Assembly: GCA_900314605.1 (NCBI GenBank)
Contig: OMVX01000011.1
Span: 1-41,794 of the forward strand
Length of the DNA: 41,794 bases
Direction of reading: 5' to 3'
DNA from: an uncultured Methanobrevibacter sp.
GTDB lineage: Archaea > Methanobacteriota > Methanobacteria > Methanobacteriales > Methanobacteriaceae
Shown one piece after another: positions 1 to 39,662 of the stretch. The notes beneath the pieces are model-generated. The model was not told the origin of the DNA. It did no database searches and was given only the letters and a program-made list of their open reading frames with translations. How positions within the stretch are numbered: the first letter of the stretch is position 1; each line of letters opens with the position of its first letter. The position numbers and the translations under genes are program-made.

Positions 1-1728
1 AGGTATGATATGTTGAAATTGAATAATTATTTTATAAAGCAGAATGTTACTCATACTATGATGACTACTCAGGTAGGTAAATTGTTTATGGATAGTGTTT
101 ATGATACTTCTTTAAAATATTTGTTTGTAGGTGGTGAGAAATTAGGTGATTTTAAAAGTCCAGGGTCTTATGTTTTAGTTGATGAGTATGGTCCGACAGA
201 AACTAATAATTTTATTAGTTCTGTTATCAATTCGGATAAGGTTCATTTTTCTTCTGTTGGTCATTTAAACTATAATTCTAAAGTTTATATATTGGATGAT
301 GATTTTAGACCTGTTCCAGTAGGAGCTGTAGGTGAATTGTTTATTGCTGGTTATCAGCTTGCTTCTGGTTATTTGAATCGTGAAGATGAAACAAATTATG
401 CATTTGTTGATAATCCTTTTGATGATGGAAATTATGGAATTTTGTATCGTACTGGTGATATGGTTCGCTTTTTACCTGATGGTAGTCTTGGTATTGTTGG
501 TCGTCGAGATGGTCAATTTAAGATTCGTGGTAATCGTGTAGAGCTTGGTGAGGTTGAATCTGTTATAAGGAATATTGATTTTGTTGAGGATGTAACTGTT
601 CAAACTGTATCTAATGATGGTAATAATGAGTTGGTTGTTTATGTTGTATTATCTGATGTAGGATATGAGGGGAATTTAAGAGAGTTTATTTGTGATCATG
701 TGGCTAAGTGTAAACCTGATTATATGGTTCCTTCTTATGTTGTTGAGTTAGATGAGATTCCTTTGACTGTTAATGGTAAGGTGGATAAGAAGTCTTTGCC
801 TGATGTTGATTTAGATTCTTTGGTTGTGGAGTATGTTGCTCCAAGTAATGATACTGAAAAATCTATAGTTCATGGATTTGAGACTGTGTTTAATCAAAAA
901 GGTATTGGATTAAATGATGATTTCATTCGTCTTGGTGGAGATTCTATTAGGGCTATTCGTCTTATTTCATTGCTTGAAAAAGATGGTATTTCTTGTAGTG
1001 CTAGAGATATATTTAAAGCTAAAACACCTTATAATATTGCTAAAATTATAAATGATGGTAAAAAAGATTATGGTTTTGTACTTGCAAGAGAGGGTACTAC
1101 TAATCAGAATATGTTTATATTACCTCCTGCTGGGGGATTAGCTATGATTTTTAATAAATTAATTAAAGAGATAGATTTTAATGGTAATATTTATGTTATT
1201 GATGATTATCAATATGAATTAACTATTGATGAAATAAGAAAAGTTGATGGTCCGTCTCTAGCTCTTCAAATGTATTGGGAAGCTATTGGTGATATTTTCC
1301 AGGATGGTGATATTCTTGTTGGTTACTCTTTGGGTTGTTTGCATGCATCACTATTATGTGAGCGTTTAGAGAAATATAAAAAAGTTGATAAATGTGTTTT
1401 AATTGATGGAACACTTAATTTTGTTAATGATAAACCAATAACTGATGAGGATATTTCATCAGAAATAAAAGAGGTTAAAGAAACTTATTTAACTGAAATT
1501 AATAATCTTGCATTTGAGGAGAAAATTATTGAAGTTTTTATTAGTAATATGAGGTGGAATTTACCTGAACCGGAATTAAATTCACATGTGATTTATTTAA
1601 CTACAGCAAATAAATTTAAAGATGAATTAGATGAAATAGCTTCAGATCATGAGTTTATTAATATTAATTCAACACATATGGATATTATAGATAAAGATCT
1701 AGATAAAATTCTTAAATATTTAAAATGA
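1..1728 (+). CDS. Non-ribosomal peptide synthetase, C-terminal part (A-PCP-TE), 5' end outside window
   Basis: The reading frame is open to the left edge, so the true start lies outside the window. The visible part is the end of an adenylation domain: YGPTET (motif A5), YRTGD (A7), GRRDGQFKIRGNRVELGEVE (A8) and NGKVDKKSLP (A10, with the catalytic Lys). A carrier domain follows with LGGDSIRAIRL, whose Ser (about residue 312 counted from the first Met, base 10) takes the phosphopantetheine arm. A type I thioesterase follows with GYSLG (Ser about 440), a possible Asp in VLIDG and a His in STHMDII. The protein would select, activate and release the last residue of a peptide in the cytoplasm. Base use is richer in G and in T-ending codons (ggt, gat, gtt) than the neighbours, consistent with transfer from bacteria. 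It converges on a MATE transporter gene 39 bases away, a plausible export partner. The family call is firm; the product is unknown. Confidence 0.95.
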   Translation, partial: RYDMLKLNNYFIKQNVTHTMMTTQVGKLFMDSVYDTSLKYLFVGGEKLGDFKSPGSYVLVDEYGPTETNNFISSVINSDKVHFSSVGHLNYNSKVYILDDDFRPVPVGAVGELFIAGYQLASGYLNREDETNYAFVDNPFDDGNYGILYRTGDMVRFLPDGSLGIVGRRDGQFKIRGNRVELGEVESVIRNIDFVEDVTVQTVSNDGNNELVVYVVLSDVGYEGNLREFICDHVAKCKPDYMVPSYVVELDEIPLTVNGKVDKKSLPDVDLDSLVVEYVAPSNDTEKSIVHGFETVFNQKGIGLNDDFIRLGGDSIRAIRLISLLEKDGISCSARDIFKAKTPYNIAKIINDGKKDYGFVLAREGTTNQNMFILPPAGGLAMIFNKLIKEIDFNGNIYVIDDYQYELTIDEIRKVDGPSLALQMYWEAIGDIFQDGDILVGYSLGCLHASLLCERLEKYKKVDKCVLIDGTLNFVNDKPITDEDISSEIKEVKETYLTEINNLAFEEKIIEVFISNMRWNLPEPELNSHVIYLTTANKFKDELDEIASDHEFININSTHMDIIDKDLDKILKYLK

Positions 1729-1767: not shown

Positions 1768-3504
1768 TTATTTTTCATATATTATGTATGTTTTATTAAA
1801 ACCTAAAATTTGATCATAATCAAATTGGCAATTTAATTTGGATAATGCCTTTATATTATTAGATTGCTTTAATTTATTATTTGAAAAGGGATTGTAGAAT
1901 TTTCCTTCATTAGTAAATACAATATAAAGTTTTTCATCCTCCAATCTTATTGTAAGATCAATATCATCAATATCAAGATGTTCAAAAATACTGTTACATA
2001 TATCATTTATAGAATTAGAAATGGTAATTGCATTCTCCTTGAAAAGATCTTCAATATGAATTAAATGTTCCCTGGTTTCTTTATTTAAATATTTATCTAT
2101 TTTTCCTACATCATTTCTGTTATATGTCCATGTAATCAGTTTTGATTTTTGTATCAAAAATAATCTATTAAATTTATCTTTTTTAGATTTTTGTAGTCTT
2201 AATGTTAAATAAACATAAATCACAACAGGAAGAGATTCAGCAATCAGTATAGCAATCCAGATACCTTTTCCTCCAATAATTCTTGTTAAAATTAATGAAG
2301 CACTAACAATAAATAAAAATTCTTCTAAAAATGTAATAATTGATGAAATTTTATTTCTTTCTATAGCCTGTGTATAAGACGCTAAAAGATAAGATATGCA
2401 ACGACCTATAAGGGAGAAAGATGTTATTCGTATAGCTAAAGTAACCACTTCAGCATCATGTGGATTAACCACATTAAATATGGATAATAATATTTCAGGA
2501 TAAATAAAAAATAGTATACTTACAGGAATTGAAATAAGTAAAACTTGTTTCATTGAAACTATAATCATATAACGTATGGCTTCATAATCATTTTCTTTGT
2601 GGAGTACAGTTACAATTGGAGACATGGCTTTCATAATTCCAGATAAAAATATGTAAACAACACTTTCACTGTTGTCATATATCAAAAAGGCTAAGAGCCC
2701 TGCAACACCCAAATAAGTTGAACATAAATATGTTAGTAAACTAATTTTAAAAGTAAAGAATATTTTTCCAATGACCTCAGGTGTATTCAAAATAAATTCT
2801 TTCATTGTAAAAATAATTTTTTTCATCTTATTTTTTGCTATTGGAGTTATTTGGAATGATCCTTTTTTAAAAATTATGTATTGGGAAATATATATTGCAC
2901 CTATAAGATAACCTATAACAGTACTTAAAGCAGTAGAAGTAATGTCTCCATTAAACACTTTCAAAAATAGTATATCAAAAAATATATTAAGAATATTAGC
3001 TATAAGCACAGCATAAAATGGTAATCTCGGAAATCCATCAGAACGAATGAAATAGGAAACTACAATAATATAACAGTTTAATGGGTAATAAAACATTATT
3101 ATTAACAAATATTCTTTAGAGATATTGAAAATCTCTGCAGGACAATTATACATAATCAATATATTATCAGCGAAAAGAAAAATAAATAAAACATATAATA
3201 TAGAAAAAACACCTATTCCCAAAATTGAAAGTGTAAAATAATAATTCATTTTTTCATGATCTAGCTTTGATTGAGCCCTTAATGCTAGTAAATTACCTCC
3301 CTGACCAAATAAGATATAAAATATCCCAGTAAAATAAGTCAAAGGGGAAGTTAAATTAATAATGGATAATTGTTGAGAACCTATAAAAAAACCTATAATA
3401 ATCATATCAATTACTACAGCCAATTTATCGGACATAACCATACAAAAAGTAGGTAGAAGTAAAGTATTATATTTATGTTTTAAATAAATTAAATTTCTTT
3501 TCAT
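1768..3504 (-). CDS. MATE-family efflux transporter fused to a degenerate HATPase_c_2 (RsbW-like) domain, copy 1
   Basis: Residues 1 to about 450 form a twelve-segment MATE (Na+/H+-coupled multidrug/oligosaccharide/polysaccharide flippase type) membrane domain, with YILFGQGGNLLALRAQS near the N-terminal repeat. Ordinary MATE pumps end there. This one has about 117 further soluble residues (462-578) resembling anti-sigma-factor kinases of the GHKL type. Aligned to an RsbW N-box, the segment SINDICNSIFEH has Asp in place of the catalytic Glu and Ser where the Mg-binding Asn should be. The G1 box reads NEGKFYNPF, with Asn in place of Asp, and the glycine-rich G2 box is not recognisable, so ATP binding is doubtful. 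The start has GGTG five bases upstream. A TATA-like AT stretch lies at 3523-3537. It is a paralogue of the gene at 4061-5809 and of the broken gene at 10902-12649. Export of the NRPS product is inferred only from proximity. Confidence 0.88.
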   Translation of the reverse strand: MKRNLIYLKHKYNTLLLPTFCMVMSDKLAVVIDMIIIGFFIGSQQLSIINLTSPLTYFTGIFYILFGQGGNLLALRAQSKLDHEKMNYYFTLSILGIGVFSILYVLFIFLFADNILIMYNCPAEIFNISKEYLLIIMFYYPLNCYIIVVSYFIRSDGFPRLPFYAVLIANILNIFFDILFLKVFNGDITSTALSTVIGYLIGAIYISQYIIFKKGSFQITPIAKNKMKKIIFTMKEFILNTPEVIGKIFFTFKISLLTYLCSTYLGVAGLLAFLIYDNSESVVYIFLSGIMKAMSPIVTVLHKENDYEAIRYMIIVSMKQVLLISIPVSILFFIYPEILLSIFNVVNPHDAEVVTLAIRITSFSLIGRCISYLLASYTQAIERNKISSIITFLEEFLFIVSASLILTRIIGGKGIWIAILIAESLPVVIYVYLTLRLQKSKKDKFNRLFLIQKSKLITWTYNRNDVGKIDKYLNKETREHLIHIEDLFKENAITISNSINDICNSIFEHLDIDDIDLTIRLEDEKLYIVFTNEGKFYNPFSNNKLKQSNNIKALSKLNCQFDYDQILGFNKTYIIYEK

Positions 3505-3522
3505 AATACACCATTACTATCA

Positions 3523-3537
3523 AAATATATAATAAAT
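3523..3537 (-). promoter_or_regulatory. Putative TATA box for MATE copy 1
   Basis: On the minus strand the sequence TTTATTATATATTTT lies about 20-35 bases upstream of the ATG, leaving a very short leader that contains the GGTG ribosome binding site. This is inferred from position and composition only, and the whole region is AT-rich. Confidence 0.3.
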
Positions 3538-3669
3538 TGTCAAAATAAATTTCATAAAATAATAGGTCTTATATTAGTTATAGAAATCTTTTTTATTTAA
3601 TTTGAATAATATTTTTTAGATTAAAACAAATGATTTTCTATTTTACAAATTATAATTTAAATATATAAA

Positions 3670-3828
3670 GACTTTGTAGAAATCCTATTTGATTTTTGAA
3701 AAATTTTTAGAAAAATCAATTTTTTCTATTTTTACATAAATTTTTAAAAAAAAAAATCTTAAATTTAATTATTTTTATTCATTATTGTTTAACTCTATAA
3801 CAATAAAAAATATGATTTCTACAAAGCC
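3670..3828. repeat. MITE-like element, copy A
   Basis: The 556-base gap 3505-4060 holds no gene but does hold this element. CTTTGTAGAAATC (3672-3684) is matched by its perfect inverse GATTTCTACAAAG (3814-3826). TATATAAA occurs just outside both ends (3662-3669 and 3829-3836), as expected of an 8-base target duplication. The interior (AAAATCAATTTTTT, a T-rich stretch, then TTTAACTCTA) reappears in reverse orientation in the element at 29247-29428. There is no coding capacity. A small non-autonomous transposable element is the best reading. Confidence 0.65.
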
Positions 3829-4038
3829 TATATAAAAATAAAAATATATCAAAATTTTATAAATTTTTAATCAATATTAGTATGAACTTATTAGAATTTT
3901 AAATATTATGTTTTTAGAATATTTAAATCTAGCGATTAGATAATCATAGGGAGAAATTTAATAAAAATATTATCAAAATTTTAAAAAGGCCTAACAAATT
4001 GACAGTCTCATTTAAAATGATATTATGGATAATTTTGG

Positions 4039-4060
4039 GATATTTTTAAATGGAAATATC
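4039..4060 (-). terminator. Hairpin after MATE copy 2, duplicate of 1746-1767
   Basis: GATATTT (4039-4045) pairs with AAATATC (4054-4060) around the same 8-base loop as the hairpin at 1746-1767. It directly follows the stop codon of the second MATE gene, so it was duplicated together with that gene. Confidence 0.5.
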
Positions 4061-5809
4061 TTAATTTTCATATATGAGATATGTTTTATTAAATCCTAAA
4101 ATTTCATCATAATCAAATTCACAATTTAATTGGGATAAAGCCTTAATATTATTTGATTGCATTAAATTATCATTTGAAAATGGATTATATAATTTTCCTT
4201 CATTAGTAAATACAATATATAGCTTTTCATCCATCAATCTTATAGTAAGGTCAATATCATCTATATCAATATGTTCAAAAATATCATTACAAATATCATT
4301 TATAGAATTAGAAATGATTATTGCATTCTCCTTAAAAAGATTTTCCACTTGAATCAATATTTTACTGGACTCTTCATCTAAATATTTATCAAGTTTACCT
4401 ACATCATTTCGGTTATATGTCCATGTAATCAGTTTTGAATTTTGAATCATAAATATTCTATTTATGATATCTTTATTAGATTTTTGAAGTCTTAATGTTA
4501 AAATAACATAAACTAAAACTGGAAGACATTCAGCTACTAATATTGAAATCCAAATACCTATTCCTCCGATAAGTCTTGTTAATATTAATGCACTTGCAAA
4601 TAAAAATAAAAATTCTTCTAAAAATGTAATAATTGATGAAATCTTATTTTCTTCTATAGCTTGAGCATAAGAAGCTAAAAGATATGACATACAACGTCCT
4701 ACAAGGGAAAAAGCAGTTAAACGTATAGCTAAAATAACTACTTCTGCATAATATGGATTAGATACATTAAATATAGCTAATAATATTTCAGGATAAACAA
4801 AAAATAGTACACTTACAGGGAATGAAATAAGCAAAACCTGCTTCATTGAAACTACAATAATATAATGTACAGCTTCAAAATCCATTTCTTTATGGAGTAC
4901 AGTTACTATTGGAGACATGGTTTTCATGATTCCGGATAAAAATATATAAACTACAGTTTCACTGTTGTCATATATTAAAAAAGCTATGAGTCCTGCAACC
5001 CCCCAATAAGTAGAGCTTAAATAGGTAAGCAAACTTATTTTTAAGGCAAAGAATATTTTTCCAATAACCTCAGGTGTATTTAATATAATATCTTTCAAAG
5101 AATAGAGAATATTTTTAATCTTATATTTTGCTAGAGAAATTATTTTGAATGATCCTTTTTTAATAAATATATATTGGGAAATATATATTGCACCTATAAG
5201 ATAACCTATTACAGTACTTAAAGCAGTAGCAGTAATTCCCCAATCAAATACTTTTAAAAATACTATATCTAAAATTACATTAATAACATTAGCTATAAGT
5301 ATTGCATAAAATGGCATTTTTGGAAATCCGTCTGAACGTACGAAATATGAAACAACTACAATAAAACAATTTAAGGGATAATAAAAGATTAATATAAGCA
5401 AGTATTCTTTAGAAATATTGAAAATCTCTTTAGGACAATTATACATCATCAATATATTATCAACGAAAAGAAAAATAATCAATATATATAATATGGAAAA
5501 TATACAGATTCCTATTACTGAAAGTGTAAAATAAAAATTCATTTTTTCATGATTAAGCTCCGATTGTGCTCTTAAAGCTAACAAGTTTCCCCCCTGACCA
5601 AATAATATATAAAATATCCCTGTATAGTAGGTTAAAGGAGAAGCTATATTAATTATTGATAATTGTTGTGAACCTATTAAAAAGCCGATAATAATTATAT
5701 CAATTACTGCAGCAACTTTCTCAGACATTACCATGAAAAAAGTAGGTAAGAGTAAAGTATTATATTTATTTTTTAAAAAAGTATATTTTCTTTCTAATTT
5801 TCCTTCCAT
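4061..5809 (-). CDS. MATE-family efflux transporter fused to a degenerate HATPase_c_2 domain, copy 2
   Basis: This is a close paralogue of the gene at 1768-3504 along its whole length: MATE membrane domain in the first 450 or so residues, then a 117-residue soluble tail. In the tail the N-box segment SINDICNDIFEH has Asp at both the catalytic-Glu and the Mg-binding-Asn positions. G1 is NEGKLYNPF and no G2 glycine loop is seen. The chosen start is the ATG at 5807-5809 (MEGKLERKY), because GGTG lies five bases upstream exactly as in copy 1. The in-frame GTG at 5815 overlaps that binding site and is less likely. Tandem arrangement, shared ribosome binding site and shared 3' hairpin indicate a local duplication. 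Transport of a peptide, lipid-linked or toxic substrate is possible, but the substrate cannot be read from sequence. Confidence 0.87.
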   Translation of the reverse strand: MEGKLERKYTFLKNKYNTLLLPTFFMVMSEKVAAVIDIIIIGFLIGSQQLSIINIASPLTYYTGIFYILFGQGGNLLALRAQSELNHEKMNFYFTLSVIGICIFSILYILIIFLFVDNILMMYNCPKEIFNISKEYLLILIFYYPLNCFIVVVSYFVRSDGFPKMPFYAILIANVINVILDIVFLKVFDWGITATALSTVIGYLIGAIYISQYIFIKKGSFKIISLAKYKIKNILYSLKDIILNTPEVIGKIFFALKISLLTYLSSTYWGVAGLIAFLIYDNSETVVYIFLSGIMKTMSPIVTVLHKEMDFEAVHYIIVVSMKQVLLISFPVSVLFFVYPEILLAIFNVSNPYYAEVVILAIRLTAFSLVGRCMSYLLASYAQAIEENKISSIITFLEEFLFLFASALILTRLIGGIGIWISILVAECLPVLVYVILTLRLQKSNKDIINRIFMIQNSKLITWTYNRNDVGKLDKYLDEESSKILIQVENLFKENAIIISNSINDICNDIFEHIDIDDIDLTIRLMDEKLYIVFTNEGKLYNPFSNDNLMQSNNIKALSQLNCEFDYDEILGFNKTYLIYEN

Positions 5810-6323
5810 ATACACACCATTACTATGAAATATTTGATATACACTTCAAATTAAGACCAATATTATAATAGATTATAATATTAGTTTGTATAAATCAGAT
5901 ATATTTTTTTAAAGAAAAATATTTTTTTTATATAATTTTTTGATAAAAACTTTATATCTTCTATTTTTATTATTACAGCTTATATTTTAGATTAATATAA
6001 AAATATGGAAATATTTAATTATTTTTAATCATAATATTAATATACATAAAAAAAAATGTTCTAAAAAAATATATGTTTTTTAAATATTTAAATCTATTGA
6101 ATTTACTTATTAAATGTGTTTAAATTTTTATTTATTAATATAATTAATTCCTTATCATTAAATGAATATAAACAAAAGGAAATAATATCTTATTTAAATT
6201 GAAATTTTTTTAGTTATCTTAGAAACTTAGAATTTTTATCAATTACACTTAAATAATTGTTAATATAATATTAAAAATTGTATATAAAAATTAATATTCT
6301 TAATATACGGAGGATTAATACTT
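5810..6323. other. AT-rich divergent intergenic region
   Basis: This region separates MATE copy 2 (leftward) from the MFS gene (rightward). It is almost pure A/T with no coding signal. The only clear elements are promoter-like sequences at its two ends, including the TATA box at 6281-6288. Confidence 0.5.
6281..6288 (+). promoter_or_regulatory. TATA box of the MFS gene
   Basis: TATATAAA lies 43 bases before the ATG. A transcript starting about 25 bases downstream would have a leader of some 15 bases carrying GGAGG (6309-6313), a good ribosome binding site. Assigned by position and match to the archaeal box A. Confidence 0.45.
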
Positions 6324-7870
6324 ATGAATCAAACTATTAAGGAGCACTCTTGGATTCCATTAATCCTTGTTTGTTTTGCTACCTTTATTATAGCTTTGGA
6401 TACTACCTTCATGAATGTTAGTATTTCTTCAGTTATTGCTGATTTGAATACTGATGTAAGTACCATTCAATCTATTTCCTCATTTTATACTCTTATCACT
6501 GCTTCATTCATGCTGTAAGTACCAAGCTTCAGGACATTGTTGGTAAAAAGAAACTGTTTTTAATTGGTGCTGTGATTTATGGAATAGGTACACTTACTGC
6601 AGCATTAAGTTCTAGTGTTTTAATGTTATTTGGGGGATGGGCATTACTTGAAGGTCTTGGTGGTGCTTTAATGACACCTACTGCTGTTTCTATAATTAGT
6701 GGAACCTATCATGGTGATAAACGTACATTTGCTTTGGCAATAGAAAGTGCACTTGTTGCAATTGCTGCTGCTATAGGTCCACTTTTTGGTGGGGTTGTGA
6801 CATCATACTTCACTTGGAGATTAGGATTTGCTGTAGAATTTATAATCGTTTTAATTGTTTTAGCAATGTCAGGTAAAATACCTTATTTCAAAGCAACTGG
6901 ATCTAAAAGCGAATTGGATATTACAGGTTCTATTATTTCATTTGTAGGTCTAGTTCTATTTGTTATCGTTATTTTAATGTTAACAGATGATACTACTTTC
7001 AGTATAGCTGCAATGGTTCTAGGTCTAATTGTTCTTGCACTCTTTGCATTATTTGAAATCAAAAGAAAAAGAAAAGGCAATGTACCGTTGCTTGATGTTG
7101 AATTATTAAAAGACAGAAATCTACGTGTAGGTACTGTCCTTAGATTAATGGTTAATCTTGCTATGGGTGGTACATTATTTGCAGTTTCTGTTTACTTGCA
7201 AAGCGTATTAGCTTTATCTGCATTTAATACTGGTTTAACTTTGCTTCCTATGACTTTAGGTTTACTAATGTTTGCATTGGCAGCACCAAGATTATCTGCA
7301 AAACTGAATCACAAGATACTCATGTCTGTTGGATGTATAATTTCAATCATTGGATGTTTAATTTTAAGCCACCAGTTTACAATGGATACAACAATGCTTG
7401 AGTTAATGCCTGGACTGTTCATATTAGGAGCTGGTCTTGGGTTTGTAATGGCTTTAGGAGTAGACATAGCATTAAGCAATATTCCTGAAGAAGGTCAGAA
7501 TAATGCATCAGGTATTGTTACTACCGGTCAGACTTTAGGTCAGTCTATGGGTACAGCAATTATTGGAGTAATTTTGATTCTTGGAGTTATTGGTGGTATT
7601 AGTGATGGTGTTAATACTTATGCTCCTGATCATTCTGGTGATCAGATGTACGAAAAAGGAGTATATAATTACTTCCAGTCTATAGGCAGTATCAACGAGG
7701 TTAATCAAGAAAATAGTACAGTTCAAAATGTTGTAAATGTTATTATTAAAGATTCCATGCAATTTGTAATGTATGTGTCTGCAGCTATGATGGCTATAAT
7801 ATTTGTTCTGACTTTACGGCTCTCGGATAAGAAGATTAAAAAACCAGATAAAAAAATTAAAAAATCATGA
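6324..7870 (+). pseudogene. MFS drug exporter, DHA2 (EmrB/QacA) type, split by a -1 frameshift
   Basis: The first 64 codons (6324-6518) encode the N-terminal helix with LDTTFMNVSISSVIADL, typical of 14-helix DHA2 drug:H+ antiporters, and end at a TAA. In the -1 frame the sequence continues without loss (VSTKLQDIVGKKKLFLIGA from 6517) into the long downstream frame ending at 7870. That frame holds AAAIGPLFGG (family motif C) and a Lys-rich C-terminal tail. One missing base at about 6515-6518 explains the break; without it the protein would be about 515 residues, the usual length. GGAGG lies eleven bases before the first ATG. The GTG at 6572 is inside the frame and is not a credible start. This may be a recent pseudogene, a sequencing error or an off-state. 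Confidence 0.85.
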
Positions 7871-7896
7871 GAGTTTATTCTCTCATTTTATCTTTT
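7867..7896 (+). terminator. Intrinsic-type terminator of the MFS gene
   Basis: ATGAGAG (7867-7873) pairs perfectly with CTCTCAT (7880-7886) around a 6-base loop and is followed by a T-rich tract. The gene's TGA stop lies inside the left arm. Confidence 0.65.
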
Positions 7897-7919
7897 TTTA
7901 GATATTAATTATTTTCTTC

Positions 7920-8014
7920 TTTTAAAATATCCGTTATAAGCCTATAACTTATTTTAAAATATTAAAATTATTTATTTTGAAAATTAACTAAAATTATTAG
8001 AAAACTAATTTTAG
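7920..8014. repeat. Two further dyad symmetries downstream of the MFS gene
   Basis: The first, 7920-7959, has arms TTTTAAAATA and TATTTTAAAA enclosing GTTATA/TATAAC. The second has CTAAAATTA (7988-7996) pairing perfectly with TAATTTTAG (8006-8014). With the terminator at 7867 they make three hairpins in 150 bases just before the insertion sequence. Function is unknown; they may be relics of inserted elements. Confidence 0.4.
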
Positions 8015-8110
8015 AATCATAGTGTAAGACAATATCATCATATCAATATTATCAATAATATAGTAAAATATCATTTATATATTTACAAATTATTATTGTA
8101 TTCTCTTTTT

Positions 8111-9097
8111 GAGAGTGGGACGCAAATTTTTTTATAATTTTTTGCCAACTCGAAAAAATAATAATTAAAATTTTTAATTTTTTATTATTTTTCTTATTTT
8201 AAGTATTTTTTCTATTTATTTCATTGTATATTCTTTTCAGATTGTGTCCGATTGATATAATTTGAATTCTGTGTTTACTTCTTTTAGTCCAGTTGTTCGA
8301 AATTATGTAACTTTCATATTTTGTTTTATGTTTGCAAAGGGTAATTCTGCAGTTTTAGATCTTAATTTGTAGATTTTTTGTGCCTCTTCTCTCCCATTTT
8401 TCTTTGCATTCGGATTTGGAAGGGTTTCCATATTCTTCACCTAATTCTAAATCTTCTTTCTGATCTAATTCAATGCTTTCTTTTAGATGTTTTTTCAATA
8501 TTTGTAATTATTGTTCGTTAGTTAATTTATTTATGGATGTTTTTACTTTTATTTTTGTTCCATCTAAACTTATATGATGGATTTTTATTAAATAGACTTC
8601 TTTTGCTATTTTAATAGTTGTTTTAAATGCTTCTTCAATTAAATCTGGATAATTAACTTTAAATCTTAAAATTGTTCTGTAACTCGGATTTTGCAACCCT
8701 GCTAAATACATATAACTAATATAGTCTTTATTTTTCTTTCAATCTCACGTGATGATAATCCACCATCAAATACGCTCATTAAAACTAGTCTAAGTAACAT
8801 TTCGCGCGGATAAGCAAATTCACCAGCGGTATCAACAAATTCATGATTTGCTTTGGAAGAATCAATTTGGTCGACCACGTTTTTAATAAAATAACATGGA
8901 TGATCTTCAGGAATCATATTCCTCAAGTCCCTTGGGATTAACATGCTCTGATTAATAGTATCATCTTTTAAAACCATAAATAAAACAACCATAAATATTA
9001 ATATCTATATATAATAGTTGTACTCCATAGTATTTAAATTTAAAGGATAAATAACAGAAAAAAAATTATAAAAAAAGTAATTTTGTGTCCCACCCTC
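8111..9097 (-). mobile_element. IS1182-like insertion sequence with intact ends and dead transposase
   Basis: The left end GAGAGTGGGACGCAAAT (8111-8127) is matched by the reverse complement of the right end, GAGGGTGGGACACAAAA (9097-9081). The similarity continues into a shared TTTTTTATAATTTTTT stretch on both sides, so the inverted repeats are roughly 35 bases. T-runs outside both ends could be a target duplication but are not informative. The element is about 1 kb, shorter than a full-length IS1182-type element (about 1.6-1.8 kb), so an internal deletion is inferred. No other copy is present in the window. Confidence 0.8.
8199..8992 (-). pseudogene. Decayed IS1182-like transposase
   Basis: The N-terminal part has the DUF772-type region: IPEDHPCYFIKNVVDQID, then YPREMLLRLVLMSVFDGG and SSREIERKI. 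After a one-base frameshift near 8715 it continues as MYLAGLQNPSYRTILRFK and then LDGTKIKVKTSINKLTNEQ (the DGTKI signature), followed by an in-frame TAA at about 8508. Beyond the stop, the coil-like KKHLKESIELDQKEDLELG, TAELPFANIKQNMK and the C-terminal GHNLKRIYNEINRKNT can be read in shifting frames down to 8199. At least three lesions and an internal deletion make it non-functional. The start could equally be the ATG at 8977. Confidence 0.82.
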
Positions 9098-9273
9098 TTT
9101 TTTTAAGGTGTACACAATTGTAACCTAGACGATTTTATTAAAATTTTTCAACTCTTATTTTTCAATATCTAAAATTATATTTATGTTTACAAAAATTTCT
9201 TAAAAAAAATTTTTTATATTTTTACTTTTAATTTCAAAAATCTATAGTATTCTAAAAATATTATTTTTTATTA

Positions 9274-9309
9274 TTTTAGTTCGTTAAACTATACTATAAC
9301 GAACTAAAA
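9274..9309. repeat. 13-bp perfect inverted repeat in an otherwise empty gap
   Basis: TTTTAGTTCGTTA (9274-9286) is followed after 10 bases by its exact inverse TAACGAACTAAAA (9297-9309). It lies in the 490-base AT-rich stretch between the insertion sequence and the SulP relic, where nothing else is recognised. No T-run follows on either strand, so a terminator is not favoured. It could be an operator or the end of a small element. Confidence 0.5.
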
Positions 9310-9591
9310 AATTTGAGCAAAAATAAAATGTTCGAAAATTGCATATTTTGATAACTACATATACCTGTAATCATCTCATTTTACCATTTTCGAAAAATTA
9401 TAAAAATCATATATTTTCTGAAATTTTACACTTGAAATTGTACTAATATTATATTAAATATTTTTTGATAAACTATTTTTTTTAAAATTCCACATAATTA
9501 AAAATCAATAAATTTTGTAAAACTTTATTAAATTAATAATTTAAACATAAATTATTAAAAATTAAATATTAATTTTTATCAATTTTAAAAA

Positions 9592-9770
9592 TTAATGTAA
9601 TTCCTTTGAATGTCTTCTATAATATGTCTTTAAAATATTTATTTCAATAAATTCAAGCTTCACCAAATAATTCTAATCAGTTATTAGAAAGGGGACTTAA
9701 ATATAATTTAATATGGTTTTTTTATATTTTTTACATACTTCATTAATAACAATTATTGTATATTGATTTC
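9592..9770 (-). pseudogene. Relic of a third SulP gene (3' end, STAS domain)
   Basis: On the plus strand, bases 9592-9770 align almost without gaps to the 3' ends of the two SulP genes at 19418 and 22929. Shared blocks include ATTTATTTCAATAAATTCA, GACTTAAATATA and TATATTTTTTACATACTTCA, and the TTA complementing the stop codon is kept. The reading frame is broken and only the last 60 or so codons of the STAS domain survive. It abuts the promoter region of the PAP2 gene. It shows that this part of the chromosome once held another SulP copy. Confidence 0.75.
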
Positions 9771-9825
9771 CAAAAACATTAAATATAAAGAAATTAAATA
9801 CATATAAGTTAATTAAGGTGACATT

Positions 9826-10371
9826 ATGGATTTATTAACTTTTATCAATAATGGAATGCAGAATCCGATTTTAGATTTAGTTGTTCCCATAATATATAAA
9901 ATTACAGATGCACATGTATTGCCGATTATTATTCTAGTATTATTGGTTGCAGCGTGGCTATTAAAAAAAGAAAAATTAAAAAAGATACTATTATTATGTT
10001 TTGTTAGTATAATTATTACATTCGGAATAGTTTTAGTTTTAAAAATGTATCATGTAAGTCCTAGACCTTATTCAGTTTTAAGTAATATTAGATTAGTTGT
10101 TCCGGATAATGGTCTCAATTCTTTTCCTTCAGGACATATGTCTATTTCAATGTCAATTATCACTGTCCTTTTAATGAAAATTAAAGAATATAAACTTCCA
10201 TTAACTATACTATCAATTCTATATTTATTGATTTTAGCATTTTCATTATTATATGCAGGGGTCCACTACCCACTTGATATTATTGTTGGTGCAACAGTAG
10301 GAGGTTTAATTTCCGTATTTACAGTATTTGTATCAAATAAATTATTTTATAACTACTTCAATCCTGAATAA
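9826..10371 (+). CDS. PAP2-family membrane phosphatase
   Basis: A 181-residue membrane protein with about five transmembrane segments and the three PAP2 motifs: K73-x6-R80-P81, P101-S-G-H104 and S140 ... H147 ... D151. His104 and His147 are the expected catalytic pair for dephosphorylating a lipid phosphate such as a polyprenyl diphosphate at the outer membrane face. The third motif normally reads SR-x5-H-x3-D. Here the Arg is Leu141 (SLLYAGVHYPLD), which removes a usual phosphate contact; some archaeal members may tolerate this. AGGTGA (9816-9821) sits four bases before the ATG. The length is normal for the UppP-like small PAP2 proteins. The exact substrate is not readable. Confidence 0.88.
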   Translation: MDLLTFINNGMQNPILDLVVPIIYKITDAHVLPIIILVLLVAAWLLKKEKLKKILLLCFVSIIITFGIVLVLKMYHVSPRPYSVLSNIRLVVPDNGLNSFPSGHMSISMSIITVLLMKIKEYKLPLTILSILYLLILAFSLLYAGVHYPLDIIVGATVGGLISVFTVFVSNKLFYNYFNPE

Positions 10372-10396
10372 GTACATATAAAATTACATAATTTGG

Positions 10397-10426
10397 TTCG
10401 TAAAAAGGGTTTAAAATTAAATTAAA
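10397..10426. repeat. Short dispersed repeat, family D, copy 1
   Basis: TTCGTAAAAAGGGTTTAAAA followed by TTAAATTAAA resembles the sequences at 12977-13011 and 19277-19311. It lies 25 bases after the PAP2 stop. The repeat is AT-rich and short, so it is reported cautiously. Confidence 0.35.
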
Positions 10427-10482
10427 GATATCTAAGTTTATTCTTTCTTCATTTTTTTATCATTATAGAGTATTTCCCAAAA

Positions 10483-10566
10483 TTATATTTTTTAAATAAT
10501 TTTTTTCTTTATTTTGAAAATAAAGATTTATTGGGGTTAGAACTAAGTTATAGACTTTTGTCGACA
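10483..10566. repeat. Dispersed repeat, family C, copy 1
   Basis: About 84 bases match 24548-24634 at roughly 80% by eye. Shared blocks are ATATTTTTTAAATAATTT, TTTCTTTATTT, AAAATAAAG, a TTAGAA block, and GACTTTT followed by CG and ACA. Both copies lie in intergenic DNA. No coding potential is seen; it is probably a remnant of a mobile or structural element. The rest of the 10372-10901 gap holds only a GAATATTT/AAATATTC hairpin near 10585 and AT-rich promoter-like sequence. Confidence 0.5.
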
Positions 10567-10901
10567 GCATTTAGTATTGTCTTGGAATATTTTTATATTT
10601 GAAATATTCACTATTTAGATACTCCTATTATCCATGTCCAATGTATTTATCACTTATAATATGTTCCAAGTTTAGAAAGTTTATTATGGTAATACCCAAT
10701 AGATGCATATAAATGGGGTTTAAAAGATAAAAATAAAATAGTTTGATTTTAAAGATTATTTGTATTTGTAGAAAAAATAATATATTATATATAAAATTAT
10801 AAATAGGATTAAATAAATTAATGAAAATAAATTTGAAGCTAAAAGGATTTAAATATTGTTCTCTGAACGATAAAGTGTATATAATTATAAATGGATTTAA
10901 T

Positions 10902-12649
10902 ATGATTAAAAGAGGATTTGATTTTTTAAGGAAGAAATATTTTGAAGTTCTAGCACCAAATCTTATTTTAGAAGTTTCAGATAAATTTGGAACTGTATTA
11001 GATGTTATTATAGTTGGATCCCTTATTGGAAGTTCACAATTACCTGCATTAAATGTTGTTTCACCATTCTTTTTAATTTCAGCTATTATATATGCATTAT
11101 ATGGACAGGGAGGAAGTTTATTAGCTATTAAAGCTAGATCCAATTTGAATAGTGTGGAAGCAAATCGATATTTTACTTTTTCAATTGTTGGGTCCCTATT
11201 AAGTGGAATAATATATATGATTTTCTTATTTATCTTTGCAGATTCTCTATTACACCTATTAAATGTTCCTTCATATCTCTTCAATTCAAGTAAAATTTAT
11301 TTGTTAATAATATCTGGATTTTACACTTTAAATATATATATATTCGAGTTATGTCCTATTTTGTTAAGGCTGACGGTCAAGCTAAAACAGCATTATATGC
11401 TGTGCTTATTGCAAACATATTAAACCTTATTTTAGATTTCTTATTGTTTAATTTATTTGAACAAAAAATTGTAGCTATGGCTTTAGCATTAGTTATCGGA
11501 TATTTAATAAGTGCAATATATATTTCAAAATATTTATTTAATAAAGATGCAACATTTCATTTAAGTTCAAAAAATAAAATTACGTTAAAAAATTTATATA
11601 AATTTAGAATAAAAGCATTAAAACAAACCCCAGACTTAATTGGAAGAGTTTTAATTGTTATTAAAACAAGTGTAATTATTTATTTATGTGCTACTTTTTT
11701 AGGAGGAACAGGACTTTTAGCATTTCTAGTATATGATAATATTGAAACAATAATATATTTATTTGTCTCAGGAATGAATAAGACCATTTCACCTTTCCTT
11801 ACATTATTTTACAATGAACAGGATTATCCATCAGTAGAATATATAACAAAACTTGCAACAAAACATATCCTTATTCTTATTATTACAATAGGTGGAACTT
11901 TTATGATTTTCCCCGAAATATTATATACTTTATTCAATATTACCACATATTCAGAACAACAGATTATATCTATGACCATACGTATAACAAGCATAGGTTT
12001 AATCGGCAGATGTATATCTATGCTTATAGCTGATTATGCACAAGCTATATCTTCTTCTAGAATTTCAGCTATAATTAACTTTTTAAGAGAAGGAGTATTC
12101 CCATTGATTTTTTTTATAATTTTAATTCCTATGTTTAAAGGTGTTGGAATTTGGTTTGCACTAACATTAGCTGATACCATGCCTCTATTAGCATATTTAG
12201 TTATTAGATTAACTAAAATAAAAAAATACACTACTCTTAAAAATTGTATTCTTATGATACCTGAATCACTTTCATTTAACTGGACCAGTATAAGAGGAAA
12301 CTTTGAAGAAATGGACAAAAATATGGAAGACTCAAACAAAGAAATTATAAGAAGTATTAAAGGTTTATTTGAAGATGATTATCTAATTATCACAGGAGCA
12401 CTTGAAGATATAGCTAAAAATTTATTTAATACAACCAAAACCATAAAAGAAATAGATATTTCTGTAATAGTATATGATGGTTATATAATATTTAGATTTA
12501 TTTATGATGGAAAAAAATATGACCCCTTTAAAAATAAAATACTATTAAAACAGCGAAAAATTACAAATTTAAATAAAATGAAACATTATTTTGACTATTA
12601 CAGAATGTTTGATATGAATTTTTCATATATTAAAGTATTTAAAGATTAA
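10902..12649 (+). pseudogene. MATE transporter fused to HATPase_c_2-like tail, copy 3, split by a frameshift in an (AT)6 tract
   Basis: The start at 10902 (MIKRGFDFLRKKYFEVLAPN) is chosen because it aligns with the starts of the two leftward paralogues; an upstream in-frame ATG at 10821 has no ribosome binding site. The first frame runs through YALYGQGGSLLAIKARS and FYTLNIYI, then loses frame at the alternating AT tract 11332-11343. The other frame resumes with RVMSYFVKADG, matching VVSYFIRSDG in copy 1, and ends at 12649. The soluble tail is more divergent. The N-box-like EDIAKNLFN keeps the Mg-binding Asn position, but G1 is YDGKKYDPF and no G2 is seen. Gain or loss of one AT unit would restore the frame, so this may be a slippage-prone switch rather than a dead gene. 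Confidence 0.8.
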
Positions 12650-19417: not shown

Positions 19418-20953
19418 TTAATCTAATTCATTTGAAGGAATTCTATAGTAAGGATCTTCTAATATATTGATTTCAATAAATTCACTTGCATCATCTAATA
19501 ATTCTAAACAATCATGAGAAAGATGACTTAAATATACTTTAATATTGTTTTCTTTATATTTTTTACATACTTCATTTATAGCTATTATTGCAGATTGATC
19601 TACTATACGTGAATCTAAAAAATTAATTACTACTCCATCAACTTTAATATTGTAATCTAAAGATTCTTTAAAATTCATACAACTTGCAAAGAATAGTGGA
19701 CCCCGTACCTCATAATATTGAATATTATTTTTATTATCTAATGTAGGTATAACAGTAATTCTTTTAGAGCTTTGCCAAGCCATATTTAATGTACTTATAA
19801 TAACACCGACTAAAACTGCTATTGCTAAATTATTTAATAGGACTGTTAAAACGGTCACAATTATCATAACAGCCATATCTATTTTAGGAACATGATTTAT
19901 AACTTTTAAACTGGACCATTTAAATGTATTAAAAGCTACTACAAACATTACTCCTACTAGTGCAGCCATTGGTATAATATTTACAATTGATGAGCCAAAA
20001 ATTAAAATGATAAATATTAGACTTCCTGCAATTATACCACTTAAATGTTTTAATCCTCCTGATTCCAGGTTAACCATTGTTTGACCTATCATAGCACAAC
20101 CACCCATTCCATGGAAAAAACCACAAAATGTATTAGCTATTCCCTGTGCTACACTTTCTTTATTTGCTCTACCACGTGTATTAGTCATTTCATCTACAAC
20201 ATTAACTGTAAGTAAAGTTTCGATTAATCCTACAGCTGCCATTAATATAGCATATGGAAGAACAATACTAATTGATTGAAAAGTTATAGGTACCATCGGT
20301 ATATGGAATTTAGGTAGTCCTGATGCTATACTTGCTATATCTCCAATTGTTTTAGTCTTCAAATTAAAAATAAGGTTTATTAAGGTTACTGTGATTATAG
20401 CAACTAAACCACTAGGAACCTTCTTTGTGAGTTTTGGTAAAAAATACATAATCAAACTACTAATAACTACTAAAACCAACATAAATATTAGTGGTAATCC
20501 ACTTAACCATGTACCTGATGGTGTTTTAAACTGTTCTATTTGTGATAAAAATATAATAATTGCAAGACCATTTAAAAATCCATATATAACAGGTTGTGGA
20601 ACTAGACGTATAAATTTAGCTAATTTAAGAGCACCAACCAGTATTTGTATAAGACCCATAATAATTACAGCCAGATAAAGATATTCTACACCATAAGTAA
20701 CTATAAGGGCTACACTAACTATAGCTACACTACCTGCTGCACCACTAATCATACCAGGTCTTCCACCTAAAAGTGATGTGATTAAACATATTATACCTGC
20801 TGTTACAAGGCCTGTTAAAGGATCTAAATGAGCTACAATAGCAAAAGCAATACATTCAGGCATCAATGCAAGTGAGGTTGTAAGACCTGATAATATTTCA
20901 TTTTTTAAAGTAATAAGTTTATATTCTTCTTTAATACTTTTTAAATTATACAT
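19418..20953 (-). CDS. SulP-family anion transporter with C-terminal STAS domain, copy 1
   Basis: A 511-residue protein. Residues 1 to about 390 form the SulP membrane domain, with GRPGMISGAAGS, LVPQPVIYGFLNGLAI and NTRGRANKESVAQGIAN. The last 110 or so residues form a cytoplasmic STAS domain (VDGVVINFLDSRIVDQSA). The family moves sulfate, bicarbonate or other anions with Na+ or H+; the substrate cannot be read here. The GTTGAT before the ATG is a weak ribosome binding site. It is transcribed away from the divergent solenoid-protein gene and duplicated at 22929-24464. The last 175 or so residues differ at only about five positions between the copies while the membrane part differs much more. 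Confidence 0.93.
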   Translation of the reverse strand: MYNLKSIKEEYKLITLKNEILSGLTTSLALMPECIAFAIVAHLDPLTGLVTAGIICLITSLLGGRPGMISGAAGSVAIVSVALIVTYGVEYLYLAVIIMGLIQILVGALKLAKFIRLVPQPVIYGFLNGLAIIIFLSQIEQFKTPSGTWLSGLPLIFMLVLVVISSLIMYFLPKLTKKVPSGLVAIITVTLINLIFNLKTKTIGDIASIASGLPKFHIPMVPITFQSISIVLPYAILMAAVGLIETLLTVNVVDEMTNTRGRANKESVAQGIANTFCGFFHGMGGCAMIGQTMVNLESGGLKHLSGIIAGSLIFIILIFGSSIVNIIPMAALVGVMFVVAFNTFKWSSLKVINHVPKIDMAVMIIVTVLTVLLNNLAIAVLVGVIISTLNMAWQSSKRITVIPTLDNKNNIQYYEVRGPLFFASCMNFKESLDYNIKVDGVVINFLDSRIVDQSAIIAINEVCKKYKENNIKVYLSHLSHDCLELLDDASEFIEINILEDPYYRIPSNELD

Positions 20954-21303: not shown

Positions 21304-22878
21304 ATGGGTTTATTTGGATTTCTAAAAAAAGATAAAAAAGAAGAATCATCAACTAAAAAAGAACAAAATATAGAATTTAAAGATGAACAAGTAGATTCGG
21401 ATGATACAAGTAATATTGAAAAATACTTAAACTCCAATGAGTTAACAAACAAACAAAAACAACAAATACTATACAAAAAATTTGCAGAAAATTCAGAAAA
21501 TCGTAATGAACGTCTTTTTGCTATAAATGAGATTATGGATGTTTATATGCTCAAAGATATAGCCTTAAATTTTAAAGATAGATACTCGAGAACACTTGCT
21601 GTTGCAAAAATTGAAGATGAACAAATATTAACTGAAATAGCAGAAAAATCTCCTTATATAGAAACAAGACAAATTGCATATGAAAGACTTGGTAAAAAAG
21701 ATAAAGCTATAGCAGAACTTTTAAAAGGTCAAAATAACAAAGATACTGTTAAAAAAGGACTAGAAGAAATAGATGATGAAAAAATATTAACAGATATAGT
21801 TATTAATTCAAAAGATAAAAAAGCAAGAAATGGTGCCCTAGCAAAAATAACAAATAAAGATTTTTTAGAAGATATTGCATTAAAATCAAATGATGAATCA
21901 ATTAAAGAACAATCAATAAAACAAATAGATTTAGATAATTATTTGAAAGAAAAATTTCTAAAAGAAGAAAATTCAGCTAATATTAAACTTATTGTGCTAG
22001 AGAAAGTTGATGATGAAGAGCTACTTAAAAAAATAGCCTTAAAAGATAATTATGAAAAAGTTAGATTAGAAGCTATATCAAAAATAAATAATAAAGATAC
22101 ATTAGAAAATATACTAAAAACAACAGAACATCCTGATGTAAAAATTGAGATTATGAGTAGAATTGATAATCCAAATTTAATCAAAGACATTGCTCTACAT
22201 GATAAAGATAAATATACAAGAAGTATAGCATTAAATTATATTGATGATAATGAAATATTAAAAAATGTAGCTTTATCTGGAGAAGATAATTTTATAAGAA
22301 AAATTGCTGCTGAAAAAATTACTAATGAAAAATATTTAGAAGAAATATTAATAAATGAAAAAGATAAATCTGTTCAAAAAGCGCTATTTTCTAATAAAAA
22401 TATGCAAAATGAAGACCTTATTGCAAATATAGCAATTAATTCAGAATCAGAAGATGTTAGAAAACTTGCACTTGAAAAGATTACCGATGAAAATATATTA
22501 AAAGATTTAATAATAAAAACAGAATATGAGGATACTGCAAGTGCTGCTTTATCTCAAATAAATGATGAAGCACTTTTAACAGAAGTTATTGCAAAAACTA
22601 AAAATAAAAATATTGCACTTAAAGCTATTAGATCAATTCATGATGAAAAAATATTAGAGATAATCGCAGAAAAATCAAACTTTGAAGATGTAAGAATAAG
22701 TGCTATATCAAAAATTGATAATCAAAAGATTATTGAAAAGATTGCCTTAAATGACCCTGAGATTAATGTAAGATCCGCTGCATTAAATAAAATATTAAAC
22801 ATTAATGTGTTAAAAGAAATTGCACAAAATGATTCTAATGAATATATACGTAATAAAGCTAATAAATTAATAAAATAA
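21304..22878 (+). CDS. Alpha-solenoid protein of seventeen 26-residue HEAT/LRV-like repeats
   Basis: After a short charged N-terminus (MGLFGFLKKDKKEESS) and about 60 linker residues, the rest divides into seventeen consecutive repeats of 26 residues, with one repeat a residue longer. The consensus is roughly L-x-x-I-A-x-x-(S/N)-x-(D/E)-x-x-V-R-x-x-A-(L/I)-x-K-I-x-D-x-x-(I/L). LKDIALNFKDRYSRTLAVAK and IEKIALNDPEINVRSAALNK are two examples. The periodicity and the VR-x-x-A core resemble HEAT and leucine-rich-variant repeats, which form superhelical protein-binding scaffolds. There is no signal peptide or membrane segment, so it should be cytosolic. GGAGA lies six bases upstream of the ATG. It sits between two SulP genes, and a functional link is possible but unproven. 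Name and partner unknown. Confidence 0.85.
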   Translation: MGLFGFLKKDKKEESSTKKEQNIEFKDEQVDSDDTSNIEKYLNSNELTNKQKQQILYKKFAENSENRNERLFAINEIMDVYMLKDIALNFKDRYSRTLAVAKIEDEQILTEIAEKSPYIETRQIAYERLGKKDKAIAELLKGQNNKDTVKKGLEEIDDEKILTDIVINSKDKKARNGALAKITNKDFLEDIALKSNDESIKEQSIKQIDLDNYLKEKFLKEENSANIKLIVLEKVDDEELLKKIALKDNYEKVRLEAISKINNKDTLENILKTTEHPDVKIEIMSRIDNPNLIKDIALHDKDKYTRSIALNYIDDNEILKNVALSGEDNFIRKIAAEKITNEKYLEEILINEKDKSVQKALFSNKNMQNEDLIANIAINSESEDVRKLALEKITDENILKDLIIKTEYEDTASAALSQINDEALLTEVIAKTKNKNIALKAIRSIHDEKILEIIAEKSNFEDVRISAISKIDNQKIIEKIALNDPEINVRSAALNKILNINVLKEIAQNDSNEYIRNKANKLIK

Positions 22879-22928: not shown

Positions 22929-24464
22929 TTAATCTAATTCATTTGAAGGTATTCTGTAATAAGGGTCCTCTAATATATTTATTTCAATAAATTCACTTGC
23001 ATCATCTAATAATTCTAAACAATCTTGAGAGAGATGACTTAAATATACTTTAATATTCTTTTCTTTATATTTTTTAATTACTTCATTTATAGCTATTATT
23101 GCAGATTGGTCTACTATACGTGAATCTAGAAAATTAATTACTACTCCATCAACTTTAATATTATAATCTAAAGATTCTTTAAAATTCATACAACTAGCAA
23201 AGAATAATGGACCTCTAACTTCATAATATTGTATATTATTATTTTTATCTAATGTAGGTATAACTGTAATTCTTTTAGAGCTTTGCCAAGCCATATTTAA
23301 TGTACTTATAATAACACCTACTAAAACAGCAATAGCTAAATTATTTAATAAGACTGTTAAAATTGTAACAATTATCATAACAGCCATATCTATTTTAGGA
23401 ACATGATTTATAACTTTTAAACTGGACCATTTAAACGTATCAATGGATACTACAATCAATACTCCGATTAAAGCAGCCATTGGCATATAATTTAAAAGAG
23501 AAGAACCGAACATTATTATAATAAATATTAAACCTCCAGCTATTAATCCACTTAAACGCTTTAATCCTCCTGATTGTAAATTTACCATAGTTTGTCCAAT
23601 CATAGCACAACCACCCATTCCATGGAAAAATCCACAAAATGTATTAGCTATTCCCTGAGCTACACTTTCTTTATTTGCTCTACCACGTGTATTAGTCATT
23701 TCATCAACAACATTAACTGTAAGTAATGCTTCTATTAATCCTACAGATGCCATTAATATTGAATAAGGAAGAACAATCTTGATTGATTCATATGTTATCG
23801 GAACCATTGGAATATGAAAAGAAGGAAGTTGTGGACTGATACTTGCTATATCCCCTATTGTTTGTGTATTTAATCCAAAAATAAGGTTTATTAGTGTAAC
23901 TGTTATTATAGCAACTAAACCACTTGGTACCTTATCTGTTATTCTTGGTAAAAAATACATTATTAATATACTAATTGTAACTAAAATTAACATTATTATA
24001 AGTGGCATTCCAGTTAACCATGCACCTGAAGGGGTTTTAAACTGTTCTATTTGTGATAAAAATATAATAATTGCAAGACCATTTAAAAATCCATGTATAA
24101 CTGGTTGTGGAACTAAACGTATAAATTTAGCTAATCTTAATACACCAACAAGTATCTCTATAAGTCCCATAATAATAACTGCAAGATAAAGATATTCTGG
24201 ACCATGTGTAACAACAAGTGCTATACTTACTATAGTTAAACCACCTGCTACACCACTTATCATTCCAGGTCTTCCCCCAATAAGTGATGTGATTAAACAT
24301 ATTATTGCAGTAGTAAAAAGACCAGTTAAAGGATCTAAATGAGCAAAAATAGCAAATGCAATAGCTTCAGGTATTAAAGCTAGTGATGTTGTAAGTCCTG
24401 CTAATATCTCATTTTTTAAAACTATAAGATTATATTCATTTTTAATACTTTTTAAATTATACAT
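22929..24464 (-). CDS. SulP-family anion transporter with C-terminal STAS domain, copy 2
   Basis: Also 511 residues, collinear with the copy at 19418-20953, with the same GRPGMISGVAGG, LVPQPVIHGFLNGLAI and NTRGRANKESVAQGIAN segments and a STAS domain. GTGAT lies upstream of the ATG. It converges with the solenoid gene, 50 bases apart with no clear hairpin. The two SulP copies are nearly identical from about residue 340 to the end but clearly diverged before that, a pattern suggesting gene conversion of the 3' half. Substrate not determined. Confidence 0.93.
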   Translation of the reverse strand: MYNLKSIKNEYNLIVLKNEILAGLTTSLALIPEAIAFAIFAHLDPLTGLFTTAIICLITSLIGGRPGMISGVAGGLTIVSIALVVTHGPEYLYLAVIIMGLIEILVGVLRLAKFIRLVPQPVIHGFLNGLAIIIFLSQIEQFKTPSGAWLTGMPLIIMLILVTISILIMYFLPRITDKVPSGLVAIITVTLINLIFGLNTQTIGDIASISPQLPSFHIPMVPITYESIKIVLPYSILMASVGLIEALLTVNVVDEMTNTRGRANKESVAQGIANTFCGFFHGMGGCAMIGQTMVNLQSGGLKRLSGLIAGGLIFIIIMFGSSLLNYMPMAALIGVLIVVSIDTFKWSSLKVINHVPKIDMAVMIIVTILTVLLNNLAIAVLVGVIISTLNMAWQSSKRITVIPTLDKNNNIQYYEVRGPLFFASCMNFKESLDYNIKVDGVVINFLDSRIVDQSAIIAINEVIKKYKEKNIKVYLSHLSQDCLELLDDASEFIEINILEDPYYRIPSNELD

Positions 24465-38132: not shown

Positions 38133-39443
38133 TTATTCAAATACTTTAATTTGAACTTGTTTAAATAAATCCTCATTAATCTTTGATTTATTAATATCAA
38201 TAATATATTTAATGTTATCTTTGCATATATTACATTTGTAAAGTTCATATCTGTTAATAGAAATATTACAGAACTTTTCTATTTGGTCTTTAGTAAAATG
38301 ATTCGCATATGGCTTTAATGAATATAAAATATAATTAACATCTGTATAATTATATGAGTTATTATTTAATTTTGTTAAAATATTTTCTATATAGATATTT
38401 ACCTTAAAATGATATACATCAATATTATCAAATTTATTATCAACAAAATTAATAATATACCTATAATCTTCACTTTCATAAAAATGATCAGAGTATTTAA
38501 TTATTAAAGAAAATAATAATCTTACCTGTTCTTCTGTTAATTGATCTGCAAAACCCCTTAATTCTTTAAAAATTTCATTCATATCTTTATTTGTATGAAA
38601 AGTTAATAGAATCTGATTAATACTTTCTTTATAAGTTTCTTTAATAAAATTACTATCAATTTTATCTTTATTTGAATTTATAATATGATTGAAATCATCT
38701 GCATATACATTTAATAAAGGTTCATTTACCATTATTTGACATATTTGGGTAAGTTGATCTTTATTAAATTTATTAGCATTCATTCTTAAATAATTAAAAG
38801 AATCTGAAACATCCCCCTCTTTATAAACTCTTAAATTATCTAATTTATTATTTATTTCAATTTGATAATCTTTTAAATCTTTATCATAAGATTTATTAGC
38901 TAAATCCTCATTAAAAATTAATAATTCCTCATTTTTCTCATATATTTGAATTATTAATTTATCTAAATTAGGTGAAGAAATTTTGATACCAGTAATAGGA
39001 TTTGCATAATACCAGCAAGGACTATTATTACCTTTTTCCTCTACAAAAAGAAAACCTGTATATTCTCCAAAATCACTTATTTCTAACCATTTACTGGAAA
39101 TATTTTCTGAAATATTTTCTAATTTAATAATATCCTCAATATATATTCCCTTCTTATAATAATCTAAAATAATATAAATGATTTCTTTTTTACAGTTTTC
39201 TATATCAGATTTGTACTGTTTTTTATAATCAAAATTTTTATCTTCAAGTAAACTATCTATTTTTCTATTACACTTATCTACTGTTGCAAAATCACATTTA
39301 AATCCAGCACGTTTTTTTTCATCTTCGAGTATTCTAATATCAGACTCTATTTGAAGGTTTCTTTTAGTAGAAATGGATTTTTCATCTTCTATTTTATTAT
39401 TTAATTCAGCAATCTGATTTAATAATGGATTAATTTGAGACAT
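38133..39443 (-). CDS. Coiled-coil/triple-repeat protein of unknown function, paralogue 1
   Basis: About 436 residues, family not recognised. Residues 1-100 are a charged coiled coil (LNQIAELNNKIEDEK). A compact middle region has SSKWLEISDFGEYTGFLFV and SPCWYYANPITGIKIS. The rest contains three related helical repeats of roughly 75 residues, each with an F-x-x-x-Q-x-x-x-x-(C/F) start and a YIIx(N/D)xN(K)xK(I/F) end; KFNKDQLTQICQIM and HFTKDQIEKFCNIS open repeats 1 and 3. The last repeat holds CNIC, a possible metal site half. The start is taken at MSQIN (39443) because the paralogue starts there; GGG lies six bases upstream. An ATG five codons earlier is in frame but has no binding site. No membrane segment or signal peptide. 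Confidence 0.75.
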   Translation of the reverse strand: MSQINPLLNQIAELNNKIEDEKSISTKRNLQIESDIRILEDEKKRAGFKCDFATVDKCNRKIDSLLEDKNFDYKKQYKSDIENCKKEIIYIILDYYKKGIYIEDIIKLENISENISSKWLEISDFGEYTGFLFVEEKGNNSPCWYYANPITGIKISSPNLDKLIIQIYEKNEELLIFNEDLANKSYDKDLKDYQIEINNKLDNLRVYKEGDVSDSFNYLRMNANKFNKDQLTQICQIMVNEPLLNVYADDFNHIINSNKDKIDSNFIKETYKESINQILLTFHTNKDMNEIFKELRGFADQLTEEQVRLLFSLIIKYSDHFYESEDYRYIINFVDNKFDNIDVYHFKVNIYIENILTKLNNNSYNYTDVNYILYSLKPYANHFTKDQIEKFCNISINRYELYKCNICKDNIKYIIDINKSKINEDLFKQVQIKVFE

Positions 39444-39662
39444 ATAGAACCCTTTCATTATTAAAATTATTTTTTATTAAGTAGATAAAAAAATATTTTA
39501 AAAAAATATTATATTGTATTTTATTAAATTACTATAAGTTTTATTTAAATTATTATTGTTGTTTAGTTATTTTTATTATAAATTATTTATAATTAATTAT
39601 AAATTAAATTTAGTAATTTACAATATTTTTACTTTTAGATATCTATAGATTATAAGTCATAC

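Follow-up and report, generated by a model that had tools for sequence, protein, structure and literature searches.

Three MATE-family exporter genes from an uncultured Methanobrevibacter sp. carry a C-terminal tail which, judged by its predicted fold and its residues, is a catalytically dead relative of the kinases RsbW and SpoIIAB. The genes lie on a stretch of 41,794 nucleotides, the window, which is the entire contig C33 of its source genome. We put at roughly 60% the probability of our main reading: that such tails are dead descendants of RsbW/SpoIIAB-type domains fused to a MATE pump, that in complete systems a STAS protein docks on the tail to switch the pump, and that in this genome the tail is a docking or structural remnant.

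A preliminary description of this DNA had reported three MATE paralogues with a common C-terminal tail, the third of them split, and our coordinates agree with it (Table 1). Copies 1 and 2 are intact open reading frames that share 78% identity over their full length. In each, two MatE stretches lie above the Pfam cut-off, corresponding to both MATE halves in one membrane protein, and a full-length model of copy 2 (pLDDT 86.4) has a helical MATE body. The tail follows the last membrane helix, is about 120-140 residues long and has no Pfam match in the window copies. Copy 3 loses its frame near 11340, beside an ATATATATATAT (AT dinucleotide) tract at about 11333-11345, and so reversible slippage is possible. 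Two further tailed MATE genes on contig C10 and one on C9 bring the number of tailed copies in the genome to six. The NRPS gene, truncated by the contig end, is convergent with copy 1, from which it is separated by 40 bp; its nearest relatives are an NRPS on contig C52 of the same genome and one adjoining a tailed MATE gene at another locus (L151).

Table 1. Tailed MATE genes of the window and the NRPS gene beside them
Feature	Position	Tail	Strand	Details or basis
MATE exporter with degenerate RsbW-like tail, copy 1	1768..3504	about 1771-2187	-	578 aa; MatE 3e-24
MATE exporter with degenerate RsbW-like tail, copy 2	4061..5809	about 4064-4480	-	582 aa; MatE 2.7e-24
Copy 3, N-terminal MATE fragment upstream of the frameshift	10902..11423		+	MatE 1.6e-7
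Copy 3, remaining MATE domain and tail	11351..12649	about 12224-12646	+	Pfam, alignments
NRPS gene, 3' end (adenylation, carrier, weak thioesterase match)	10..1728		+	Pfam

Elsewhere in the window, two reading frames that look by eye like an MFS exporter resemble one broken gene (6324-6518 and 6572-7870, +), and transposase-like fragments at 8508-8992 (-) match DUF772 below threshold only. Two proteins of about 440 residues each (38133-39458 and 39801-41129, -) look like paralogues by eye and have no Pfam match at 0.001.

The tail escaped Pfam and also a profile search of the PDB, which returned no RsbW match when run with the window's clade, here clade D, alone; fold prediction and relatives were needed. 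A tail model built from 16 tails, all of clade D, reached a pLDDT of 86 and a pTM of 0.80, with its elements in the order of GHKL domains. When this model was compared with the PDB using Foldseek, the best nine matches were chains of SpoIIAB, UsfX and RsbW (probability 1.00, E 1e-4 to 1e-3), with modest TM-scores to SpoIIAB/RsbW of 0.44-0.64, and the structures matched are mostly complexes with a STAS or sigma partner. When profiles were compared with the free RsbW proteins of the same family, the N-box and G1 segments lined up position for position, with a probability of 85% and E 6e-6, and HATPase_c_2 itself is detected in homologous pumps (L033, 2.9e-14; L034, 2.7e-13; L014 and L016, about 5e-6). 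Together these data support the earlier identification of the tail as an eroded GHKL domain of the RsbW/SpoIIAB type; the structure prediction proposed as a check has returned a SpoIIAB-type fold rather than one unrelated to GHKL.

Alignment of the three copies gives, for the N-box pair with the Asn position and for G1, ND...S and N.G in copy 1, ND...D and N.G in copy 2, and ED...N and Y.G in copy 3; the G2 glycine is absent from all three tails. The motifs listed in the preliminary description (Asp for Glu; Ser, Asp or Asn at the Mg-binding position; NEG or YDG at G1; no G2) are thus those of the alignment. An active, ATP-binding kinase domain that regulates the pump by phosphorylation might be expected from membership of a kinase family, and some related tails do keep every motif, but the window copies have had the catalytic Glu, the Asp of the G1 D-x-G box and the glycine of the G2 G-x-G box replaced or lost, and the Mg-binding Asn as well in two of the three. 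We reject this explanation, which is very improbable, because of that motif loss; the preliminary description is right that catalytic motifs have gone.

The loss is graded across the family. We grouped 82 tailed pumps by their tail motifs, and most of them were included in a tree built from the MATE part. Clade A tails keep EE...N, D.G and the G2 glycine, and the HATPase_c_2 signal in the GH3-linked pumps of this clade reaches E 3e-14. Most members of clade B, which is NRPS-linked, keep EE...N and D.G and lack G2, and clade C has lost the N-box. In clade D most motif positions are lost, to a degree that varies, one member (L125) retaining EE...N and D.G. Erosion of the kinase motifs is therefore graded over the Methanobacteriaceae relatives, with clade D the furthest advanced. 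Some internal nodes of the tree have moderate support; once bacterial sequences are added, clade D nests within clade B, with support of 0.92 to 0.99 at the nodes that place it.

A search of 152 genomes from the phylum gave strong matches over the full length in Methanobacteriaceae only, and no tailed-pump match was found in 24 archaeal genomes outside that family. A pattern scan of genome contigs with copy 1 returned one remote Lachnospiraceae MATE protein and nothing else, and 100 genomes from the family of a Lachnospiraceae record contained many full-length fusions. Of 17 bacterial fused pumps examined with their surroundings, 7 adjoin NRPS or GH3 genes and 9 adjoin any gene of the system; two of these 17 match HATPase_c_2 (8.7e-10 and 2.5e-12). 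The fused pump has likely passed between the archaeal and bacterial domains by transfer.

Neighbourhoods were evaluated in 80 stretches from related genomes together with stretches of the window's own genome, annotated through sequence searches with family members. Most stretches span 12.3 kb upstream and 5.7 kb downstream, several contigs being short, and all counts hold within that reach. An NRPS gene lies within 3 kb of the fused pump at 40 of 46 clade B loci and at all 14 of clade C, nearly always co-oriented with and upstream of the pump, and in most cases overlapping it or a few bases away. In clade A a GH3 gene stands beside the pump in four of five cases, the fifth lying on a contig of just 3.4 kb. 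One or more of the switch proteins STAS, RsbW and SpoIIE is encoded nearby in 4/5 loci of clade A, 25/46 of clade B and 5/14 of clade C. The whole combination of NRPS or GH3, tailed MATE, STAS, RsbW and SpoIIE occurs at L043-L046, L054, L056, L057 and others among the archaea, and at L183, L184 and L186 among the bacteria. Pfam searches confirm the assignments to SpoIIE, HATPase_c_2, STAS and GH3, as well as an NRPS of two modules that ends in a reductase. The free RsbW copies retain EE...N, D.G and either GGLG or GGWG; a serine motif, SSAGLR or SSSGLR, is likewise retained by the STAS proteins.

At four archaeal loci (L054, L055, L056 and L057) paired GH3-family genes adjoin STAS, RsbW, SpoIIE and the fused MATE gene, and the bacterial loci L170 and L183 also have GH3. 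A two-module NRPS ending in a reductase is, we presume, a possible source of gut dipeptide aldehydes, which we treat as a lead only; we found no paper tying these NRPS clusters to such compounds.

Clade D departs from this pattern: none of its 17 loci has a STAS, RsbW or SpoIIE gene nearby, and its sole NRPS neighbour is the convergent gene of the window. The preliminary description had linked the fusion to NRPS and partner-switching genes. That link holds in related archaea and in Lachnospiraceae but is not supported for the window copies, and the fusion occurring away from such genes, named there as evidence against the idea, is largely what clade D displays, though not the family as a whole. 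The scenario describes the family well and the orphan copies of the window poorly.

The same absence extends to the genome. A complete set of kinase, STAS protein and SpoIIE phosphatase is found neither near the window genes nor genome-wide, and the window's own genome and three others of the genus that were searched gave no SpoIIE and no HATPase_c_2 match; for G076, a clade D genome of another genus that is 87% complete, neither was among the matches listed. Several NRPS genes are present in the window's own genome, and the MATE genes near those on contig C31 have no tail. Its STAS domains belong to two SulP permeases of the window and to one soluble protein near the end of contig C23. The permeases are very similar, carry the domain C-terminally (19418-20953 and 22929-24464, -) and flank a gene for a protein with weak HEAT-repeat matches (21304-22878).

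These STAS domains could be the tail's present partners, and the soluble C23 protein (L155, 5710-6408, -) does read YVSSAGLR. Its gene, however, appears to be frameshifted, and we found no soluble counterpart in G001-G003; the SulP domains, for all that they lie in the same window, read VDQSAI where SSAGLR is expected, and no switching kinase or phosphatase was found. Docking of a STAS protein on the tail in this genome is accordingly an unlikely alternative.

The tails might otherwise be neutral leftovers, decaying since the switch genes were lost. The missing kinase motifs and the genus without SpoIIE or HATPase_c_2 matches fit such decay, as do the frameshift of copy 3 and a tail-only remnant in G002 that carries a stop codon. 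We estimated dN/dS by counting, on single pairs. Between copies 1 and 2 the ratio is 0.26 (0.13-0.45) for the tail and 0.27 (0.20-0.37) for the MATE part, and in this intact pair the tail is under purifying selection as strong as that on the pump. Three other clade D comparisons gave tail ratios of 0.34, 0.31 and 0.21. For the C9 copy, paired with its counterpart in G002, the ratio was 0.48 with a very wide interval. For the tail of copy 3, paired with the C10 paralogue, it was 0.67, again with a wide interval (0.40-1.21), which is what a decaying gene would be expected to show. Five of the six paralogues are intact, and five tail positions are invariant in clade D (I, Y, P, N, N). Given ratios well below 1, we set neutral decay aside as improbable.

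These data allow us to propose a mechanism. In other archaea and in gut bacteria, related fused pumps sit in peptide-making clusters beside a complete phosphorylation switch, whose target may thus be the pump itself. In complete systems the kinase, a free RsbW, and the phosphatase, a membrane SpoIIE, would fix the phosphorylation state of the STAS protein, and in one of its states this protein would bind the tail, its docking switching export directly; the STAS protein would in this way gate the pump, and with it release of the NRPS product. In the genus of the window the switch genes are gone, and the tail would persist in a structural or docking role that needs no nucleotide, perhaps pairing pumps or holding some other partner. 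A former switch-docking domain, its catalysis gone and retained for a structural or docking role, is thus the best reading of the window tail. More tentatively, and at slightly under even odds, we suggest a form of partner switching common to gut Clostridia and methanogens which dispenses with a sigma factor and acts, through a STAS-docked tail, on the exporter of an NRPS or GH3 product, some methanogens having lost the switch and kept the dead domain.

We found no description of a MATE protein fused to an RsbW-like tail in the open-licence literature searched, and none of the NCBIfam models matched spans the fusion. The window tail resembles the anti-sigma serine kinases RsbW and SpoIIAB (HATPase_c_2, PF13581) in predicted fold, element order and N-box/G1 register, and differs from them in being fused to a MATE exporter and in having lost its catalytic and lid residues. 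Compared with MATE multidrug exporters (PF01554), the window pumps have the same complete two-half body and, in addition, a C-terminal GHKL domain.

No sigma factors are known from archaea, which makes the output of archaeal SpoIIE/RsbW/STAS modules a puzzle. A pump that bears an RsbW-like domain and adjoins a biosynthetic gene offers a concrete and testable output for them. If correct, this would suggest how rumen and gut microbes of both domains release NRPS or GH3 products on cue.

Partner switching with an output other than a sigma factor has a known example in SiaABC of Pseudomonas aeruginosa, which comprises a phosphatase, a kinase and a STAS-like protein and whose proposed output is the cyclase SiaD (PMC7647112). 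Against the SiaA model, the SpoIIE phosphatase of the family described here gives a match of 9.7e-16 that is far below the cut-off of that model, and the presumed output differs from SiaD in being a transporter with an RsbW-like domain of its own. The mru0066-0071 cluster of Methanobrevibacter ruminantium M1 brings together an NRPS, MatE, an anti-sigma factor antagonist and serine phosphatases, and the roles proposed for it are sensing, control of NRPS expression, and export (PMC2812497). The passages on that cluster describe no kinase-like tail on the pump and no switch acting on it directly. The fusion points to something more direct than that proposal: the STAS protein would dock on the pump itself.
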